From Solwaraspora sp. WMMD1047 (lineage in GTDB: Bacteria > Actinomycetota > Actinomycetes > Mycobacteriales > Micromonosporaceae), in contig NZ_JARUBL010000001.1 in assembly GCF_029626155.1 (NCBI RefSeq), positions 6,600,501-6,664,500 on the forward strand: 64,000 nucleotides of DNA, given 5' to 3'. Shown here piece by piece: positions 54,683 to 62,041 of this stretch (position 1 is its first letter; each line of letters starts with the position of its first letter). A program made the translations under genes and the position numbers. Under the pieces are notes generated by a model that worked only from the letters and a program-made list of their open reading frames with translations, did no database searches and had not been told where the DNA came from.

Positions 54683-55290
54683 TCATAGGGGCCATTGGCT
54701 CCCAAGATCGGAGCCGGTTGATAGGTCGAGGCGGGCGCTGATGCGGTCGGCGAAGGTTGCGGCGCCGCATTTGCTGAGCCGGTCGAGCACCTCGGGCACG
54801 GTTCGCCGTCGGTGCCCCGGGGCACGCCCTGTCATCGCGCTCTGTCGACGGATGATGTCGGCCACCAGATTTGGTTGCAGATCGTACTGATGACAGAGGA
54901 ACTGGTAGGGATCCTGCGCCTCCAACTCGAACGGCACCAGAGAGAGATCGGAAAGTCGCTCAGATTCCTGGTGACGATCAGATCCGCGCGGCCCACGACG
55001 GCAGCCGCGAGCACGTGGCGGTCGCCGTCGTCGTTCGACATGTGGGGAATGATCGACTGGTAGCCCGTCACGCAGGCGCCCTCGAACGCCTCGTTCATTC
55101 GGCTGAAGGTGTAGTCAAGCCGATCTGGCCGAATGTCGGGTCGAAGCCGCAGGACCGTCCGGCGCACCTCCGCGAGAATGTCCCCACTCCACAGTGGACG
55201 ATATAGCCCAGACTCCGCGACGAGGAGAAGCGTGTCTCGAAGCACGTTCGGCACCAGGACGTTCGCGTCAAGAAGGGCGGAGAACGGCAC
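54683..55290 (-). pseudogene. PIN-domain toxin, frameshifted at a TC repeat
   Basis: Two minus-strand frames make one PIN-domain gene. The first (GTG 55290 to about 54940) has LLDANVLVPNVLRDTLLLVA (first Asp), LWSGDILAEVRRTVL, NDDGDRHVLAAAVVG (acidic site) and SDFPISL. The second continues VPFELEAQDPYQFLCHQYDL to the stop at 54683. They join exactly if one TC unit is removed from the (TC)4 tract at 54939-54946, giving 201 residues. As it stands the reading frame breaks in the last third. The HTH antitoxin gene lies 42 bases upstream, the usual order for this toxin-antitoxin type. Confidence 0.8.
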
Positions 55291-55332: not shown

Positions 55333-55842
55333 TTAACCGGATGCGGAATCGCGCTCGTCGTACGCGGAACCGGAGAGATCGTAAAGGCCGAGGTCCATTG
55401 CCTCGTTGGTCAACTCCTGCAGGATCTCCTGCCGCTCGCCCCTTCTCCGCTCCTGATAGCGCAACAGATCGGCAAGCTTGATGCGACGATGGCTGTTGGG
55501 ACGCTCGAATGGGATCTTGCCATCGTCGAGCAGCTTCGTCAGCGTTGGACGCGACACCCCCAGCATGTCGGCGGCCTGCTGACTGGTCAGGGTCGTGTGG
55601 TGCGGCGCGATGGTGATCGCGTAACCGCTCGCCAATGCCTCAAGCGCCTTGACCAGCACCGCATGCAGCCCGTCCGGCAATTCGATGGCGCTGGAGCCGT
55701 CGGCACTCAACAGCTTCGCCCGGGCCTCGGGCACGTCTTGCCCACGCCGTCGGAGCACCTGGAGCAGGTCCACGACGACGCCGGTGTCGGCCGCCTCCGG
55801 AAGAATCGTCTGCTCGTCCATGACCCGTTGAGCATCCCCCAT
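55333..55842 (-). CDS. excisionase-type HTH antitoxin of a PIN toxin-antitoxin pair
   Basis: A 169-residue protein. TTLTSQQAADMLGVSRPTLTKLLDDGKIPFERPNSHRRI is a MerR/excisionase-like HTH plus wing, occupying the last third. The N-terminal part is helical (DEQTILPEAADTGVVVDLLQ, PDGLHAVLVKALEALASGYA). Proteins of this plan occur directly before PIN toxin genes and neutralise them. The ATG at 55842 is the likely start. With the toxin frame broken, the pair is probably inactive in this sequence. Confidence 0.85.
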   Translation of the reverse strand: MGDAQRVMDEQTILPEAADTGVVVDLLQVLRRRGQDVPEARAKLLSADGSSAIELPDGLHAVLVKALEALASGYAITIAPHHTTLTSQQAADMLGVSRPTLTKLLDDGKIPFERPNSHRRIKLADLLRYQERRRGERQEILQELTNEAMDLGLYDLSGSAYDERDSASG

Positions 55843-55920
55843 GGACACATCCTGTCGACCAACTCGAAAGATTCGCAAGCGATCCGCTATTTTCGTCAGA
55901 TTCCTTAATTCCGGACAAAA

Positions 55921-58260
55921 TCACAGGGTTGCGGTGCGGGGGCAGCTCCAGTTGCCCTGGCCGCTGTCCCAGCTCATGACCGGGGCGTTGAAGCGGCCGG
56001 TGGACTGTGACGCGAAGAGCCAGAGGCCGGTGCGGTAGTCGCCGTAGTCGTAGAGTGCGGCGATGTCCACCACGTGATCGCCGGTGAACTCGCCGGACAC
56101 GAACCGGGAGGCGCCTGCGTGCCAGTTGCCCGGACCGCTGTCCCAGCCCACCATCGGCGCGGCGAACCGGCCCCGGCCGACCGCCTCGAACACGAACAAC
56201 CGGGTCAACCCACCCCCGTAATCGTAGAACGCGCCGACGTCGGCGAGCCCGTCGGCGGTGAAGTCCCCGGCCACATACCTGGCCCGGCCGGCGTCCCACG
56301 CGTCGTCGCCGCTGTCCCACCGGACCGCCGGCTCGACGAACCGACCGTCGCCGGCCGCCTCGAACACGAACAACCGGGTCAACCCGCCCCCGTAGTCGTA
56401 GAACGCGCCGATGTCGATGATCCGGTCGTCGGTGAAGTCGCCCACCACCAGCCGGGAACTCCCCAGCTCCCAGCCACCCTCCCCGCTGTCCCAGCGCTGC
56501 ACCGGGTCGTGGAAGCCACCGGTCCCGTCCGCCTCGAAGACCAACAACCGGGTACGCGCGTCGCCGTAGTCGTAGAACGCGCCGATGTCGGCGGACCCGT
56601 CGCCGGTGAAGTCGCCCGCGACGAACCGGGACCGGGGCAGATCCCAGTTACCCTCCCCGCTCTCCCATCTGACCAGCGGCTCGTAGAACCCGCCGAACCC
56701 GTCGGACTCGAACACCAGCAGCCGCGCCAGGCCGCCGCCGTAGTCGTAGAAGACCGCCACGTCGGCGTACTCGTCGCCGTTGAAGTCGCCGGCCACCAGC
56801 CGCGACCGGTTCAGGTCCCAGTTGCCCCGACCGCTGTCCCACACCATCTCGGGCGCCCAGAACTCGCCCCCCGGCCGGCCCTGCGTCACCCACAGCTCAA
56901 CCTGCCCGGCGCCGTTGTCGAGGAACATCACCACGTCGTCGAGGTGGTCCCGGTTGATGTCGACCCGGAGGCTGCCGCGCTCGCTGTCGGCCGGCGACCG
57001 GTTCCACCACGGATCCGGGTCCGGCTCCGGCACGGTACGCAACGTGAGGCCGTAGGCGGCCAGGGCCGGGTTCACCGGCTGGAACATCGAATCCCCGCCC
57101 TCGGTGCAGTCCCCGCGACCGACGGACGTCAGCCCCTGCGCCTGGTCACCGGCGAGGTAGGGCCCGCCGGAGTCGCCCGGCTCCACGCACGCGGTGGTGA
57201 GCGTCAACCCTTCGATGTAGTTACCCGATTTCGTGGTGGTGCTCACGTCCTTGGCCACGACGGTGCCGCACCGCACGCCGGTCTTGAAGCCGCTGCGGCA
57301 CACCGCCGCCCCCACCGCGGCCTCCTGCGAGCCCGCCACCGCGCCCAGCCCGACCACCTCGGGCAGGTTGTTCCACTTCGGGGTGGTCCGGACCCAGGCG
57401 TGGTCGTGGATCGGGAAGGTGACGCCGGCCCACTCGCCGAGTTTGACGCCGAGCGGCGACTTCACCTCCCCTTCCTCGTAGCAGTGCCCGGCGGTGAGGA
57501 ACCCGCCCTCGACGGCGAACCCGACCGAGCACCGCCCCCGCGAGGACCGGAACGCCTCCCCGCCCCGCAGGTCCTCCACCGTCTGCATCGGCCCGTCCCG
57601 GAACTCGACCCGCACGGCCGCCGCGTCGACGCCGGAGTCGACGGCGAACCCGACCGCGTCGGCCCGCCGGCCCGGCTGGGCGTGCACGGTCACGCTGTTG
57701 CTGGGCAGATCCACGTACCAGGCGAAGACCGATCCGGGTACGGCCGCCGCGTTGCGGTCCAGCGCCTCCTTCATCTCGTCGAGCTGGGCCGCGCGGTAGC
57801 GCACCAACCGCGTCCGGACTCCGGCCCGCTCGACCACCGCACCGTCGCCCGCGCCGGTCACCCCGGCGACCAGGCCCGACCCGTCCGCCGCCACCCACAC
57901 CCCGGCGAAACCCGCCCCGAGCTTCGCCCGCAACACCGACTCCATCGGGTACGCGGACCCCTCGGTCGCCCGCCGCGCCCGGAGCTGGTCGTCGGTGATC
58001 CCCAGGTCCCGCCGCAGCGCCCCGGCCGCCGGCCCGGGCTGCGTCACCGCCGCCGGCCCGGGACGCGTTGCCGTCTCGTGGCCGGTCGACGCGGCCAGGG
58101 CTGCCGGCGGCAGGGCTGCTGCGGCCAGGGCTGCCGGCGGCAGGGCTGCTGCCGCCGGGTCCACCGTCAGCCCGGCCGTGCCGGCGGCCAGGCCGAGCAG
58201 CGCCGCCGACAGACCGGCAATCAGCCGCGCCCGCCGGCCCGCGTGTCGCCGTACCCCCAT
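55921..58260 (-). CDS. secreted S1 serine protease with six FG-GAP/VCBS-like repeats
   Basis: A 779-residue exported protein. The signal peptide (about residues 1-38) precedes an Ala/Pro-rich stretch with AALPPAALAA repeats and an alpha-lytic-protease-type prodomain (ALRRDLGITDDQLRARRATE). The protease domain (about 235-415) has triad His259 (FLTAGHC), Asp286 (HDHAWVR) and Ser364 (GDSGGP). Six repeats of about 56 residues follow (430-779), each like VAGDFTGDGSADIGAFYDYG, of the FG-GAP beta-propeller type. Trypsin-like domains fused to such propellers are found in actinomycetes and may bind surface polymers. GGGGAGGA lies 5 bases before the ATG. Confidence 0.9.
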   Translation of the reverse strand: MGVRRHAGRRARLIAGLSAALLGLAAGTAGLTVDPAAAALPPAALAAAALPPAALAASTGHETATRPGPAAVTQPGPAAGALRRDLGITDDQLRARRATEGSAYPMESVLRAKLGAGFAGVWVAADGSGLVAGVTGAGDGAVVERAGVRTRLVRYRAAQLDEMKEALDRNAAAVPGSVFAWYVDLPSNSVTVHAQPGRRADAVGFAVDSGVDAAAVRVEFRDGPMQTVEDLRGGEAFRSSRGRCSVGFAVEGGFLTAGHCYEEGEVKSPLGVKLGEWAGVTFPIHDHAWVRTTPKWNNLPEVVGLGAVAGSQEAAVGAAVCRSGFKTGVRCGTVVAKDVSTTTKSGNYIEGLTLTTACVEPGDSGGPYLAGDQAQGLTSVGRGDCTEGGDSMFQPVNPALAAYGLTLRTVPEPDPDPWWNRSPADSERGSLRVDINRDHLDDVVMFLDNGAGQVELWVTQGRPGGEFWAPEMVWDSGRGNWDLNRSRLVAGDFNGDEYADVAVFYDYGGGLARLLVFESDGFGGFYEPLVRWESGEGNWDLPRSRFVAGDFTGDGSADIGAFYDYGDARTRLLVFEADGTGGFHDPVQRWDSGEGGWELGSSRLVVGDFTDDRIIDIGAFYDYGGGLTRLFVFEAAGDGRFVEPAVRWDSGDDAWDAGRARYVAGDFTADGLADVGAFYDYGGGLTRLFVFEAVGRGRFAAPMVGWDSGPGNWHAGASRFVSGEFTGDHVVDIAALYDYGDYRTGLWLFASQSTGRFNAPVMSWDSGQGNWSCPRTATL
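58091..58150 (-). repeat. perfect 30-bp tandem duplication in the protease N-terminal region
   Basis: The 30-base unit at 58091-58120 is repeated exactly at 58121-58150. It codes two copies of the Ala/Pro-rich decapeptide in the linker behind the signal peptide. It looks like a slippage hotspot. Confidence 0.85.
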
Positions 58261-58650
58261 CCGGTCCTCCCCACCTCGCACCCGATGAGGCAGCACGCTA
58301 CATAGGGATCAGCCGATTTCGTGTCGGCTTTGGACCGGGAAACTGTCGCTCAGCCGATGCTCGCGGGACGGCCCGCGCCACCGCGTCCACCGCCCTCGGG
58401 CCGCAAGAGGCCACAGGCAACAGGGCGGGAGCGGGTTGCGCGGCAGGTTCCCGGCCACTCCGCGTCGGCCGGCCTGAGCTGGGACGACGGCGACGACGTG
58501 TGCCGAGCGGCCCGGTACCCCGTCGGCTTTTCGGTCAGGTTGACCATCCCGGGTGGACCGACGGTGGAACGGATCAAGCGATCCCCGCGACCAATCCGCG
58601 AAACCTACTCTTGCCCTCCATTCGCAGCGGCGGACAGGAGTGGCTCCGAC
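58261..58650. other. 390-bp divergent intergenic region
   Basis: It lies between the protease gene (leftward) and the four-TM protein gene (rightward), and should hold both promoters. An in-frame extension upstream of the latter gene crosses it, but the true start is supported by AGGAG before ATG 58651. Nothing else is recognised. Confidence 0.6.
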
Positions 58651-60447
58651 ATGACAGATCCTGCTGGGTACGGGCAGCGGACGACGCCGTACTTCTACAC
58701 ACCAGCACCGGCCCCGCCACCGCCGTCGTTCAGCACCACCACCCGACTGCTCTGCAGTGCGGCGTACCTTGATCACGGGTTTGCCCGCACGGTCATCGAC
58801 GAGGTGGTGGAGAACGAGCAGCGGGCGGTCGCCCCGAGCGCCGACTTCGACCTCGAACCGGTGGTCCGGCACTCGTACCGGGCCCGGAAGATGCTCTTCG
58901 TCCGCGACCTCGTCCTCACCGGACTGCTGCTCGCCGGCCTGATCCTGGTCCCGTTCGTCACGCTGGCCTGGATCCTCACCGCCGCCGGCATCCTCGCCAT
59001 GCGCAGGAACGCGACCCTCGGCTCGGGAGCCGCTGCCGGTCTTCGGAGCACCGCGCTCTTCGTCACCGCCCTGATCGTGCTCTGCTGCCTCGGCGCCTTC
59101 ACCCCGCTGCTGCTGCTGCCGGGCGGCTCGGACACCTCCTCCGCCAGCGACCCCTTCGGCGGACCGTACGGCGGCGATACCGGAGGACTCGGCAGCAGCT
59201 TGGAGGAGGCGGCCCTGCAGACCGCGTTCTCGGCGACCGCGCTCGTGTTCCTGCTCGTGATGCTGCCGGTGGCGCTCGCGGCGGGCACCCTCGTCACCAG
59301 CGCCGTGCACCGGATCTCCGCGTTCCGGGCGATGCTGTCGTCATTCGGCGCCGCCGTGCCCGGCACCGCCCCGCCGCTGCCGAACGACCGGATCGCCCGC
59401 CGGATGGCCTGGGTACGCGCCGCGCAGTACGGCAACGTCACCGTGCACGCCCGCAATCCCCTGCTCGGCGCCGGCAACCCGGTCAGCGGCGCGTCCTGGA
59501 CGATGGCGCTGACCCTGCGTCCCGACCCGAACGCCACCCACGGCGGTTCCCGGCCGCCCACCGACGTGCACACCCTGGTCGACCCGCAGGAGATCCACCT
59601 GCGGCTGCGTGAGCGGGTACTGGCGCTCGCCGACCCGGCGCTGCCGGAGCACCAGCGGGTGCCGGGGGTGCGGATCGCCGACCACGTCGTCGCCGACGGT
59701 GAACGCCGCGACGGCGACCCGCTCCTCGACCGGGAACACCGGCCGCACGCGGTCGCCGCACCGGAGGCGATCACGGCGATCATCCGGCACCCGCAGGGTG
59801 GGCTCCGCTACTACCAGCGGTTCGTCGTCGGGGTCGACGGCAAGCAGGTGATGGCCGACGACGGGAGCCTGGTCCTGCCGGCGCAGAGCCAGGAGATCGC
59901 CATCTCCGCCTTCGTGCACGTCGCGGTCGAGGGTGGCCGCCTCTACGCCGAGTTCATCGGGATGCTGCTCCCGCCGGTCCGGGAGGAGTTCCACGTCGCC
60001 GACCGGCTCCGCCCCACGGCGGCCCCCGGGTTCGGCGCGGCGCTGCTGACGGCGGTGAAGAGCTGGCCCGACACGGTGAAGGCGCCGCTGCGGGTGGCCC
60101 GCTCGCTGTGGCAGATGGCCACCCTGCAGTCCCGGATGAACCGGGCCCGCACCGACAGCCGGGAGAACCTGATCAACGACTACGGGGCGCGGATCAGCGT
60201 CCGGGAACTGGCGAGCGAGGAGCTGCCCCGCAAGTTCCTTCAGGCCCTCGACGCGGAGAAATACCTGCAGCTCGTCGAGAAGGCGGTCTCCGAAGCGCTG
60301 CTGGACTATCTCGATGAGCGCCAGATCGACACCTCCGAGTACCGCCGCCGGATGGCCTTCATCCAGAACAACAACACCACCATCTCCGACAGCACCTTCG
60401 TCAACAGCGCGGTGGCGGTCGGCGCCAACGCGTCGGCGAGCAAGTGA
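58651..60447 (+). CDS. four-TM protein with C-terminal homotypic-type motif, unknown
   Basis: A 598-residue membrane protein. A Pro-rich N-terminus (YFYTPAPAPPPPSFS) is followed by a helical domain (SAAYLDHGFARTVIDEVVEN). Two TM helices lie at about 90-130 (LTGLLLAGLILVPFVTLAWI) and two more at about 130-215 (FVTALIVLCCLGAFTPLLLL; ALVFLLVMLPVALAAGTLVT). The rest is cytoplasmic and alpha/beta. The last ~25 residues, NNNTTISDSTFVNSAVAVGA onward, contain a short Ser/Thr/Asn/Val motif repeated at the start of the next protein. No function is known. ATG 58651 has AGGAG 11 bases upstream. Confidence 0.75.
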   Translation: MTDPAGYGQRTTPYFYTPAPAPPPPSFSTTTRLLCSAAYLDHGFARTVIDEVVENEQRAVAPSADFDLEPVVRHSYRARKMLFVRDLVLTGLLLAGLILVPFVTLAWILTAAGILAMRRNATLGSGAAAGLRSTALFVTALIVLCCLGAFTPLLLLPGGSDTSSASDPFGGPYGGDTGGLGSSLEEAALQTAFSATALVFLLVMLPVALAAGTLVTSAVHRISAFRAMLSSFGAAVPGTAPPLPNDRIARRMAWVRAAQYGNVTVHARNPLLGAGNPVSGASWTMALTLRPDPNATHGGSRPPTDVHTLVDPQEIHLRLRERVLALADPALPEHQRVPGVRIADHVVADGERRDGDPLLDREHRPHAVAAPEAITAIIRHPQGGLRYYQRFVVGVDGKQVMADDGSLVLPAQSQEIAISAFVHVAVEGGRLYAEFIGMLLPPVREEFHVADRLRPTAAPGFGAALLTAVKSWPDTVKAPLRVARSLWQMATLQSRMNRARTDSRENLINDYGARISVRELASEELPRKFLQALDAEKYLQLVEKAVSEALLDYLDERQIDTSEYRRRMAFIQNNNTTISDSTFVNSAVAVGANASASK

Positions 60448-60466
60448 GCGGAAAGGACGACCGACC

Positions 60467-60850
60467 GTGGGCGATGACATCCGGATCGAGCACAGCACGT
60501 TCGACAATTCGGCGGTGGCCGCCGGCCGGGGCGCGACCGCCCGGCACGGCGGGTCCGGCGGGCCGGACGAGCGGTTCTGGGCCGAACTCGAAAAGCTCCG
60601 TCGGGACCTGACGAACCTGCTCGTCCGGTTGGTCGCCCAGCCTCCTACCGCGCAGACGGACGACGCCGTCAGCCACATCTACGCCGTGCAGGGGGAGTTG
60701 GCGACCGGTCGGCGGGACCGGCGCGGCGTACTGCGGAATCTCGACCAACTGCTGGCGAGCCTTTCCGCGGCGGTAACGGTGGGGCCGTACGTGGTGCCGG
60801 CCGAACAGATCGCGCCGATCCAGGAATTCGTGGCCCGCCATGGCGAATGA
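60467..60850 (+). CDS. small helical protein with N-terminal motif shared with the four-TM protein
   Basis: A 127-residue protein. Its N-terminus, DDIRIEHSTFDNSAVAAGRG, matches the C-terminus of the protein encoded just upstream (I..STF.NSAVA.G..A.A). After a Gly/His linker a mainly helical domain follows (FWAELEKLRRDLTNLLVRLV, DAVSHIYAVQGELATG, GVLRNLDQLLASLSAAV). GTG 60467 has AAAGGA upstream; 19 bases separate it from the stop of the upstream gene. The arrangement suggests that the two proteins associate through the short motif. Confidence 0.75.
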   Translation: MGDDIRIEHSTFDNSAVAAGRGATARHGGSGGPDERFWAELEKLRRDLTNLLVRLVAQPPTAQTDDAVSHIYAVQGELATGRRDRRGVLRNLDQLLASLSAAVTVGPYVVPAEQIAPIQEFVARHGE

Positions 60851-60898: not shown

Positions 60899-62041
60899 AT
60901 GACTGAGAATCCGTTCGGCATCGACCGGGTCAAGGCGGGCGCGGACTTTCTGGAGTGGAACTTCACCATCACGATGAAGACCTCGCCGTGGTCGGTCGAG
61001 GAGGGGATGACCCAGCTGCTCGCCCACCAGAGCGCCGAGGGCTTCTCGCCCCGGCTGGAGATCTGCGCCGAGGACGACGCCAAGATCATTCATGAGCTGG
61101 GTCGGCGGCCGACTCCGACGGCGGTGGCCGCGCTGCGCGGCTTCCAGGCGATGAGCACCATCGACACCCAACGCGAGCTGGCCCGCATCAACGCCGACCG
61201 GCTCGTCCAGCAGGGCCAGCCGGAGCCGCCCTGGGTGGACACCGTCGGCCGGGTCCGGGTGGACGACTGCTGGTGGGCCCACGACGAGTACGGCGAGACC
61301 GCCGTCGTGGTCTGCGCGTTCTCCTACGACGGCACCGACGAACACGCCATCTTCGTCATGATCGACCGCGCGCTCGGCGGCGGGATGGTCCGGGAGATCC
61401 TGCTCAGCATGAACCCCGACTCGCTGCTGAGCATCGTCCGCAAGGCCGACGGGAGCGAGGACGGACTGGTCAGCGAGCCGCTCGACCCGGCCCTGGCCCG
61501 GCGGTTGCTGGAGGACGCGATAAGCACCTCCGACGAGCTGAGCGAGCACAAGGAATACAACCTGCGGCCGGTGCCCGTGCCGTACCGGAAGATGCGGGCG
61601 CTGATCCTGGCTCGCGCCCGCGCGCTGAGCGACCGGCCGGCCCCGCCGGAAACCCTGCCCAACAGCGTCGAGATCGAGCTGTTGAAGCAGTCGTTCCTCG
61701 CCTCCCCCGCCGCCGCCCGGCTGCCGGCCGGCGAGGCGACCGGCCGGGCGCTCGACCTGCTCATCCACCAGTTCCTCGACGCCGCCGCCTGCCACCCGCT
61801 GCAGATCGGCCCGCGCCGGGTCAAGGCGGTCCTCGGCCTGCCGGACCTGCTCGCCGAACTGGACGCCGACCCCGACCTGGCCCGGCTCTTCCCCGACCTC
61901 GCGTACGCCTGGGTCGCCTGGACCGCCACCGAGCGCGACCTCTCCCCGGCCGCCACCGACCGGCTCACCGAGGCCGCACGCCAGGCGTGCACCCCGCAGC
62001 GCCCGGCCGAGGACGCGGGCCACAACGGCCCGGCGGGATAG
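60899..62041 (+). CDS. unknown protein, third gene of the four-TM cluster
   Basis: A 380-residue soluble protein, MTENPFGIDRVKAGADFLEW onward. The first two-thirds include TPTAVAALRGFQAMSTIDTQ and WVDTVGRVRVDDCWWAHDEY, then FSYDGTDEHAIFVMIDRALG. The last third is helical (RALDLLIHQFLDAAACHPLQ, LPDLLAELDADPDLARLFPD). I recognise no family. It starts 48 bases after the small helical protein gene and is likely part of the same transcript. Confidence 0.65.
   Translation: MTENPFGIDRVKAGADFLEWNFTITMKTSPWSVEEGMTQLLAHQSAEGFSPRLEICAEDDAKIIHELGRRPTPTAVAALRGFQAMSTIDTQRELARINADRLVQQGQPEPPWVDTVGRVRVDDCWWAHDEYGETAVVVCAFSYDGTDEHAIFVMIDRALGGGMVREILLSMNPDSLLSIVRKADGSEDGLVSEPLDPALARRLLEDAISTSDELSEHKEYNLRPVPVPYRKMRALILARARALSDRPAPPETLPNSVEIELLKQSFLASPAAARLPAGEATGRALDLLIHQFLDAAACHPLQIGPRRVKAVLGLPDLLAELDADPDLARLFPDLAYAWVAWTATERDLSPAATDRLTEAARQACTPQRPAEDAGHNGPAG

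Follow-up and report, generated by a model that had tools for sequence, protein, structure and literature searches.

The window analyzed here, a 64,000-nucleotide stretch of the genome of Solwaraspora sp. WMMD1047 (8.16 Mb in two contigs), contains the consecutive genes A and B, which encode a predicted membrane protein of an unnamed family and a small helical protein (Table 1). The C-terminal tail of A and the N-terminus of B carry the same short motif, referred to below as the tag, and it is close to certain that this motif couples A to its partner. Paired motifs that covary, partners with varied bodies and the spread of the A family are observed in relatives. The computed match between the tags of A and of its partners exceeds relatedness, and therefore indicates selection on the match. 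On balance, we favor A and B as a membrane signaling system free of NOD-like receptors (NLRs), in which the tags would co-assemble, most probably in cross-β form, with recruitment or polymerization of the partner.

The shared motif and its covariation across relatives

Residues 578–596 of A (ISDSTFVNSAVAVGANASA) align without gaps to residues 7–25 of B (IEHSTFDNSAVAAGRGATA) with 12 of 19 positions identical, so that the shared motif noted in a preliminary description of the locus (about 12 of 22 positions) is real. The pair has a local alignment score of 51, compared with a 99.9% level of 48 and a maximum of 53 for shuffled sequences (5,000 shuffles, all pairs combined), and the N-terminus of B ranks first for the A tail among 125 partner N-termini. 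A search of the window's own genome with the last 26 residues of A gave three matches at E ≤ 10: A itself, the N-terminus of B (57% identity, E = 0.85), which is the best non-self match, and another, secreted-looking protein (E = 5.7). The preliminary description had treated a motif missing from homologues, or scattered over the genome, as counting against a functional pair; homologues do share it, and the own-genome search shows no other convincing copy.

The next gene of each A relative was picked by two rules, both blind to the motif. Under the first rule, 84 of 91 A genes have a usable next open reading frame (ORF). The mean score is 66.2 for cognate pairs, 27.4 (standard deviation 11.7) for non-cognate pairs, 23.7 for shuffled sequences and 20.1 and 20.3 for two control segments, and the cognate partner ranks first in 41 of the 84. 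The second rule covered 138 loci with 141 A frames; removal of nine duplicates, three partial or open frames and four without a next ORF left 125 pairs with a mean cognate score of 65.3 (non-cognate, 27.0). The scores of 96 of these pairs exceed the 99.9% level of the shuffled sequences and 101 exceed the 99% level. In a non-redundant set of 57 pairs, in which the A bodies are less than 45% identical, the cognate mean is 63.2 and the non-cognate mean is 26.2, with the cognate partner first in 38; the highest mean in 20,000 permutations is 33.2. The covariation between partners, which the preliminary description proposed as a check, is borne out by both sets. Chance similarity, which was considered as an explanation, is ruled out by the own-genome search, the shuffles, the permutations and the relatives.

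When relatives with 35–60% body identity are set against each other, 1582 of 1796 comparisons favor the cognate over the crossed pair. At body identities above 60% this holds for 82 of 160 comparisons (61 lower, 17 equal), the weak cognate advantage being owing to close relatives having the same type of motif. With body identity taken into account, similarity of the tails still correlates with similarity of the N-termini (rank partial r of 0.246; highest of 500 permutations, 0.105). Of the 101 pairs above the 99% level, 68 have overlapping genes for A and its partner, and in 40 of these the overlap is four bases.

The shared stretch in the 96 strong pairs (those above the 99.9% level) has a median of 26 aligned residues with 58% identity; its median end is seven residues before the end of A and its median start is six residues after the start of the partner. 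Relative to the protein bodies it is enriched in Asn (6.4-fold), Gly (2.5-fold), Gln (1.7-fold), Ser and Thr and depleted in Leu, Arg, Glu, Pro, Lys and Asp. The motif diverges strongly between lineages while the match within pairs persists, as illustrated by the tail and partner sequences of loci L015 (VFHGGVQNFGGTNT and NFQGGIQNFGGQNT), L047 (GIGNFGSGDMTFN and GIGNFGSGNMTFN) and L136 (GGTFNGPVAAGTGAHAT and GGTFNGPMAAGAGAHAV); at L061, NTGPVYTAAQGTGSTGYVAAQGP is present in tail and partner alike. Single-linkage clustering of the 96 strong motifs yields 13 groups at chance level, with 80 motifs in one of them, and 37 and 47 groups at stricter scores. Because the number of groups depends on the cut, we regard the motifs as a graded set and do not call the types mutually unrelated. 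Two partners (L147 and L149) were judged by eye to contain the motif twice.

Table 1. Positions of genes A, B and C and of the features of A and B in the window.
Feature	Position	Strand	Description and basis
Gene A	58651–60447	+	598-residue membrane protein with C-terminal motif, unnamed family; intact ORF
Conserved N-terminal segment of A, residues 29–79	58735–58887	+	Alignments; model helices 29–40 and 42–54
Membrane region of A	58909–59295	+	Hydropathy; AlphaFold helices
Soluble domain of A, about residues 240–575	59368–60375	+	AlphaFold model
C-terminal motif of A, residues 578–596	60382–60438	+	Alignment; low confidence (disordered) in model
Gene B	60467–60850	+	127-residue partner; GTG start, 19 bases downstream of A stop
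N-terminal motif of B, residues 7–25	60485–60541	+	Alignment; low confidence (disordered) in model
Four-helix bundle of B, residues 33–125	60563–60841	+	AlphaFold, 24 sequences
Gene C	60899–62041	+	380 residues

Architecture of the two proteins and their families

Protein A displays three hydrophobic peaks (residues 87–105, 138–156 and 197–215) in its hydropathy profile, and a helix in the AlphaFold model (residues 101–122) is a possible fourth membrane helix. The model of A (predicted local distance difference test, pLDDT, 83.9; predicted template-modeling score 0.80) has helices in its membrane part, followed by a soluble domain and, at residues 578–598, a tail of low confidence. Residues 29–79 are probably cytosolic, the side of the membrane being presumed. 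In the model the soluble domain has a helix-grip-like shape, for which Foldseek gave no match at E ≤ 0.001. VIA-align related it to KA1 and Bet v 1/StARkin-like chains with a best Z of 9.7 and values mostly of 7–9; these lie largely in the range that the tool labels a common arrangement, and a lipid-binding fold is therefore not claimed. In 24 scanned members of the A family, only isolated weak Pfam or NCBIfam matches (best 0.0063) and no PADLOC matches were found.

In the AlphaFold model of B, which was based on 24 sequences, residues 1–26 are of low confidence and are followed by a four-helix bundle with blocks mostly above a pLDDT of 90. The fold has no PDB match at E ≤ 0.001. B gave no protease match and no profile match to DUF5955 (PF19380) at E ≤ 1 or E ≤ 0.1 in separate scans, and the three weak matches to DUF5955 in the window's genome all lie below the cut-off. 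None of A, B and C has a Pfam match at E ≤ 1. The membrane helices of A and the four-helix B support the description of the pair as membrane-linked and without an NLR.

The A family was found in 72 of 200 Micromonosporaceae genomes (E ≤ 0.001); of 197 genomes sampled from the class, 18 carry it (E ≤ 1e-5), the window's genome being included in both counts. It also occurs at 29 loci in named genomes, including Actinomadura, Nonomuraea and Microtetraspora; the named carriers outside the sampled set are mostly Micromonosporaceae (Actinoplanes, Micromonospora, Dactylosporangium and Catellatospora). The nearest A-carrying relatives belong to the same family as the window's genome.

A total of 103 partners were scanned, comprising the 101 above the 99% level and two CHAT pairs (L009 and L010) added by hand. 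At E ≤ 0.01, 34 match DUF5955, 24 match PNP_UDP_1, two match bDLD3 and two match CHAT; the remainder have isolated weak matches at most. One PNP partner (L071) carries a bDLD3 death-like domain at its end. Another (L047) matches methylthioadenosine/S-adenosylhomocysteine nucleosidases in the PDB (best E = 4.7e-15) and the PN-superfamily effector of PADLOC (3e-24), and a CHAT partner matches a CHAT protein in the PDB (1.8e-17) and SAVED_CHAT in PADLOC (2.3e-10). Several partner bodies thus resemble anti-phage effectors. For the A proteins nearest to that of the window (67% and 66%), the next gene encodes a CHAT protease, and the motif match, judged by eye, is weaker. In a quick tree of 103 A proteins, built by maximum likelihood, the window's A is sister to the CHAT-paired A proteins (Shimodaira–Hasegawa-like approximate likelihood ratio of 100), and the kind of partner changes at least five times across the tree. 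Partner kind was labeled on the tree by length (below or above 250 residues, with 'helix' denoting the short ones); one row labeled PNP (L085, a truncated A with a score of 42) is probably a spurious ORF.

Genes A, B and C are consecutive and run in the same direction. Gene C, put forward in the preliminary description as a further component, was rejected: tblastn against the loci of relatives, many of which extend about 1.5 kb on the flank so that distant linkage is possible, matched only loci holding the window's own C. Upstream of A and in the opposite direction (55921–58296, minus strand), the adjoining gene encodes a secreted trypsin-like protease followed by FG-GAP/VCBS-like repeats, as read from its translation. 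Further upstream, also on the minus strand, a PIN-like toxin gene and an excisionase-type helix-turn-helix protein upstream of it (54832–55290 and 55333–55878) have the layout of a toxin–antitoxin pair, likewise as read from their translations.

Copies of the tag outside the facing ends

The preliminary description placed the motif at the facing ends of neighboring proteins and took restriction to these ends as a check; across the family, this restriction does not hold. At locus L011, where the next gene does not match, a search of the genome with the A tail recovered the motif once more (64%, E = 0.023). This copy forms the C-terminal part of a protein encoded directly upstream, which is about 247 residues long, has no Pfam match and weakly resembles the cyclase Ma1120 (E = 0.018). 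One genus (g12) contains several A genes without a neighboring partner. In all seven genomes of this genus with such an A that were searched, a full-length B is present (E ≤ 1.5e-35): in G153 and G156 it adjoins other copies of A, and in G144, G168, G165, G068 and G048 it is found either on a different contig or at a distance of 11 kb. An eighth genome searched, from another genus, gave no B.

The region upstream of A was inspected in three of these genomes (G144, G165 and G168). In each, a nucleosidase-like protein of 292 residues with a C-terminal motif is encoded directly upstream (motif matches E = 0.0067, 0.0060 and 5e-4, respectively), and that of G144 matches PNP_UDP_1 of Pfam (1.6e-20). 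In G068, a single open frame (L160:664–1890) contains a nucleosidase (3.3e-18), the motif and a helical B-like part, and is a natural fusion of two partner kinds. Two of the seven genomes encode an ATPase of about 1,100 residues that is not adjacent to A and has a g12-type motif between its AAA and HerA-like halves (G153, L177:2343–5660, E = 1e-4; G048, L166, E = 7e-4). For the G153 protein, matches were obtained to HerA (5e-10) and to mad8 of PADLOC (2.6e-18), and these ATPases are candidates for a sensor NTPase of the same tag network. With copies upstream, internal, elsewhere in the genome and doubled, the tag is shared by several components and not by facing ends alone.

A separate arrangement was seen at locus L174 (G168:C11:28500–37500), where a nucleosidase-like gene, with the motif at the C-terminus of its product, precedes two tandem A genes and B is on another contig.

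Proposed mechanism, alternatives and known systems

In the mechanism that we favor, A would reside in the membrane and display its disordered, Asn/Gly-rich tail to the cytosol, assuming the predicted topology, and B would present the matching tag ahead of its four-helix domain. The tags would bind like to like, and binding may be open-ended, with one tag acting as a cross-β (amyloid-type) template for the next; composition, disorder, the multiplicity of tagged components and analogy to the amyloid systems discussed below point in this direction. Clustering or activation of A by a presumed trigger would then recruit and polymerize the partner, so that A would serve as a membrane hub or sensor and the enzymes as output. 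Since the partner in relatives is often an immune-type enzyme (a PNP/MTAN-type nucleosidase or, in the sister lineage, a CHAT protease), the output is likely to be metabolic shutdown or regulated death of the infected cell, which would amount to defense. B of the window has no enzyme domain and is therefore likelier to serve as a regulator or adaptor or to provide a connection to effectors encoded elsewhere. Motif divergence from one lineage to another may serve to keep systems separate. The system would be a widespread and probably immune one, resembling amyloid signaling without the need for an NLR receptor, with both the amyloid state and the immune role suggested by analogy. A broader proposal, to which we give slightly less than an even chance, is that actinobacteria possess NLR-independent membrane amyloid signalosomes with one conserved hub, graded cross-β tags that would act as an address code and interchangeable partners (nucleosidase, CHAT protease, cyclase-like protein and helical adaptors), sometimes with at least three components per genome.

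Several observations weigh against this interpretation. The A family is sporadic, with 128 of the 200 family genomes lacking a match. A BASS3 peptide and an archaeal BASS3-like peptide each gave 0 of 250 motifs above the 99.9% level of their own shuffles (a fungal sigma peptide gave 2 of 250). Over all pairs, codon identity at identical residues is 0.644 compared with 0.580 expected, and recent DNA copying may therefore contribute in a few pairs, such as L070. Some A proteins have no motif and some have a motif without an adjacent partner; 24 of the 125 pairs score at or below the 99% level of the null, including both CHAT pairs (35 for L009 and 34 for L010, compared with 41). Inspection of these 24 by eye shows, besides the CHAT pairs, six other weak matches (L012, L082, L091, L115, L116 and L120); two loci in which the wrong frame was picked though a matching frame exists (L045 and L139); six A proteins without a recognizable motif (L038, L041, L080, L084, L086 and L125), with L148 doubtful; and seven A proteins whose motif finds no counterpart in the next gene (L043, L050 twice, L066, L088, L089 and L092). 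Under the second rule, the next gene fails to match for all six motif-less proteins; under the first, L084 scores 42 with another ORF.

The polarity of signaling could also be reversed, with A as the effector, a dormant pore or channel that would be lethal on opening, and either B or the enzyme as an upstream sensor that seeds the A tail. This reading, which is compatible with amyloid coupling and departs from the favored mechanism only in polarity, fits the three or four membrane helices of A and the position of its motif at the C-terminus, as in the Bell effectors described in the relevant part of PMC7889193; in BASS (bacterial amyloid signaling) and HET-s it is likewise the membrane-acting protein that carries the C-terminal motif. 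Against it, A contains an extensive conserved soluble domain, and many of the partners are of the catalytic type usual in effectors; we consider the reversed polarity the less likely reading, though a serious one.

Alternatively, the tags may bind specifically as an ordinary small heteromeric β-structure, such as a β-roll or solenoid cap resembling a docking domain, giving an A–B complex of fixed size without a templating amyloid. Covariation and disorder are predicted equally by such docking. Docking tags at protein ends occur in assembly lines, and the A-x-G-x-x-A pattern of the window motif is reminiscent of β-roll repeats. The composition of the tags, however, is charge-poor and rich in Asn, Gly, Gln, Ser and Thr, like that of amyloid signaling motifs as generally known and as seen in printed examples, and open-ended assembly better suits tags that are shared by several components per genome and, as judged by eye, doubled in two partners. 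Eight motif peptides, compared with Pfam including β-rolls of the YadA-head type, gave no match (0 of 8 at E ≤ 10), a comparison in which queries this short have little power. Taken together, these points make a complex of fixed size unlikely. A functionless by-product of DNA, in the form of a segment duplicated or gene-converted over the gene junction, would account for the slight excess of identical codons and for near-identical pairs such as L070 (21 of 22 codons identical at identical residues), but is very improbable and as a general cause largely refuted, because the match survives deep divergence of A, different partner bodies and partners encoded elsewhere in the genome, and because codon identity in the window pair is at chance (seven of the 12 identical residues, compared with 6.1 expected from codon usage), unlike that of a recent duplication.

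The preferred reading, co-assembly of the tags without an NLR, places A and its partners beside several known systems. The catalytic domains of relatives' partners are homologous to those of the SAVED_CHAT and PN-superfamily effectors of PADLOC, with the difference that here a motif is matched to a membrane protein. The SAVED_CHAT, PN-superfamily and Detocs effectors are known to use other switches, and Detocs-type nucleosidases cleave ATP.

BASS comprises adjacent genes paired with an NLR and is defined around Bell domains, with other carriers including CHAT, according to the pertinent sections of PMC7889193. Those sections, together with parts of PMC8086366 and PMC9815663, describe features shared with the present pairs: genes of filamentous actinobacteria that adjoin or overlap, a membrane-related protein whose C-terminus has the same short motif as the N-terminus of its neighbor, motif families that are diverse yet matched within pairs, and occasional CHAT carriers. 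In contrast to BASS as described there, the partners are small helical proteins or enzymes, with no NLR and no NTPase among the families found in the 103 partners; the C-terminal carrier is a multi-helix membrane protein of 600 residues from an unnamed family, with no convincing Pfam family in the 24 A proteins scanned; and further copies of the motif lie in upstream genes and within an ATPase. The BASS layout suggested in the preliminary description stands as far as the matched motif at a C-terminus and the adjacent N-terminus is concerned; membership of the published BASS families is not supported, given the lack of an NLR, already noted in that description, and of any likeness to one BASS3 peptide beyond that of shuffles. 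Identity of the motif with BASS3 was considered and is unsupported (0 of 250 motifs against that peptide).

The fungal motif PUASM is found with NLR-associated PNP_UDP effectors that carry an amyloid motif, as outlined in part of PMC9815663. As here, an effector of the phosphorylase superfamily bears a short motif of amyloid type (in our case by composition); unlike the fungal, NLR-coupled motif, which follows the enzyme, the motif of A partners mostly precedes it and follows it in three upstream genes. EACC1, a small domain with a single transmembrane helix, belongs to a two-gene conflict system of actinobacteria with a caspase-like protein, as presented in the main text of Kaur et al. 2020 (PMC7159879). 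Both systems have a 5' membrane gene and a 3' effector gene with variable domains, including caspase-like ones, but A is large, has three or four membrane helices and is coupled via a short motif, and the partner in the window has no protease match. The terms 'amyloid' and 'RHIM' are absent from that main text, and in the text of PMC8195603 covered here 'amyloid' appears once, in a reference. The RHIM necrosome and HET-s/HELL, treated in part in PMC7889193, use short motifs that template from sensor to executor, and the two partners with a doubled motif (by eye) recall this; the likeness is one of working, not of membership or sequence relation. Among the matches listed in searches of open-access literature, no paper deals with this family or with a bacterial motif pair that includes a membrane protein and lacks an NLR.

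Whether signaling amyloids act in NLR-independent bacterial pathways is raised as an open question in the review section of PMC7889193, and the A/B pairs are a direct test case for it; the signalosome reading, if true, would answer it. Starting from the membrane protein, about 100 matched pairs are available, in 13 to 47 motif groups depending on the cut. If the tags are amyloid, they would extend amyloid signaling to membrane hubs and make natural motif pairs available for work on specificity; an unnamed membrane family and DUF5955-like proteins would each gain a role.

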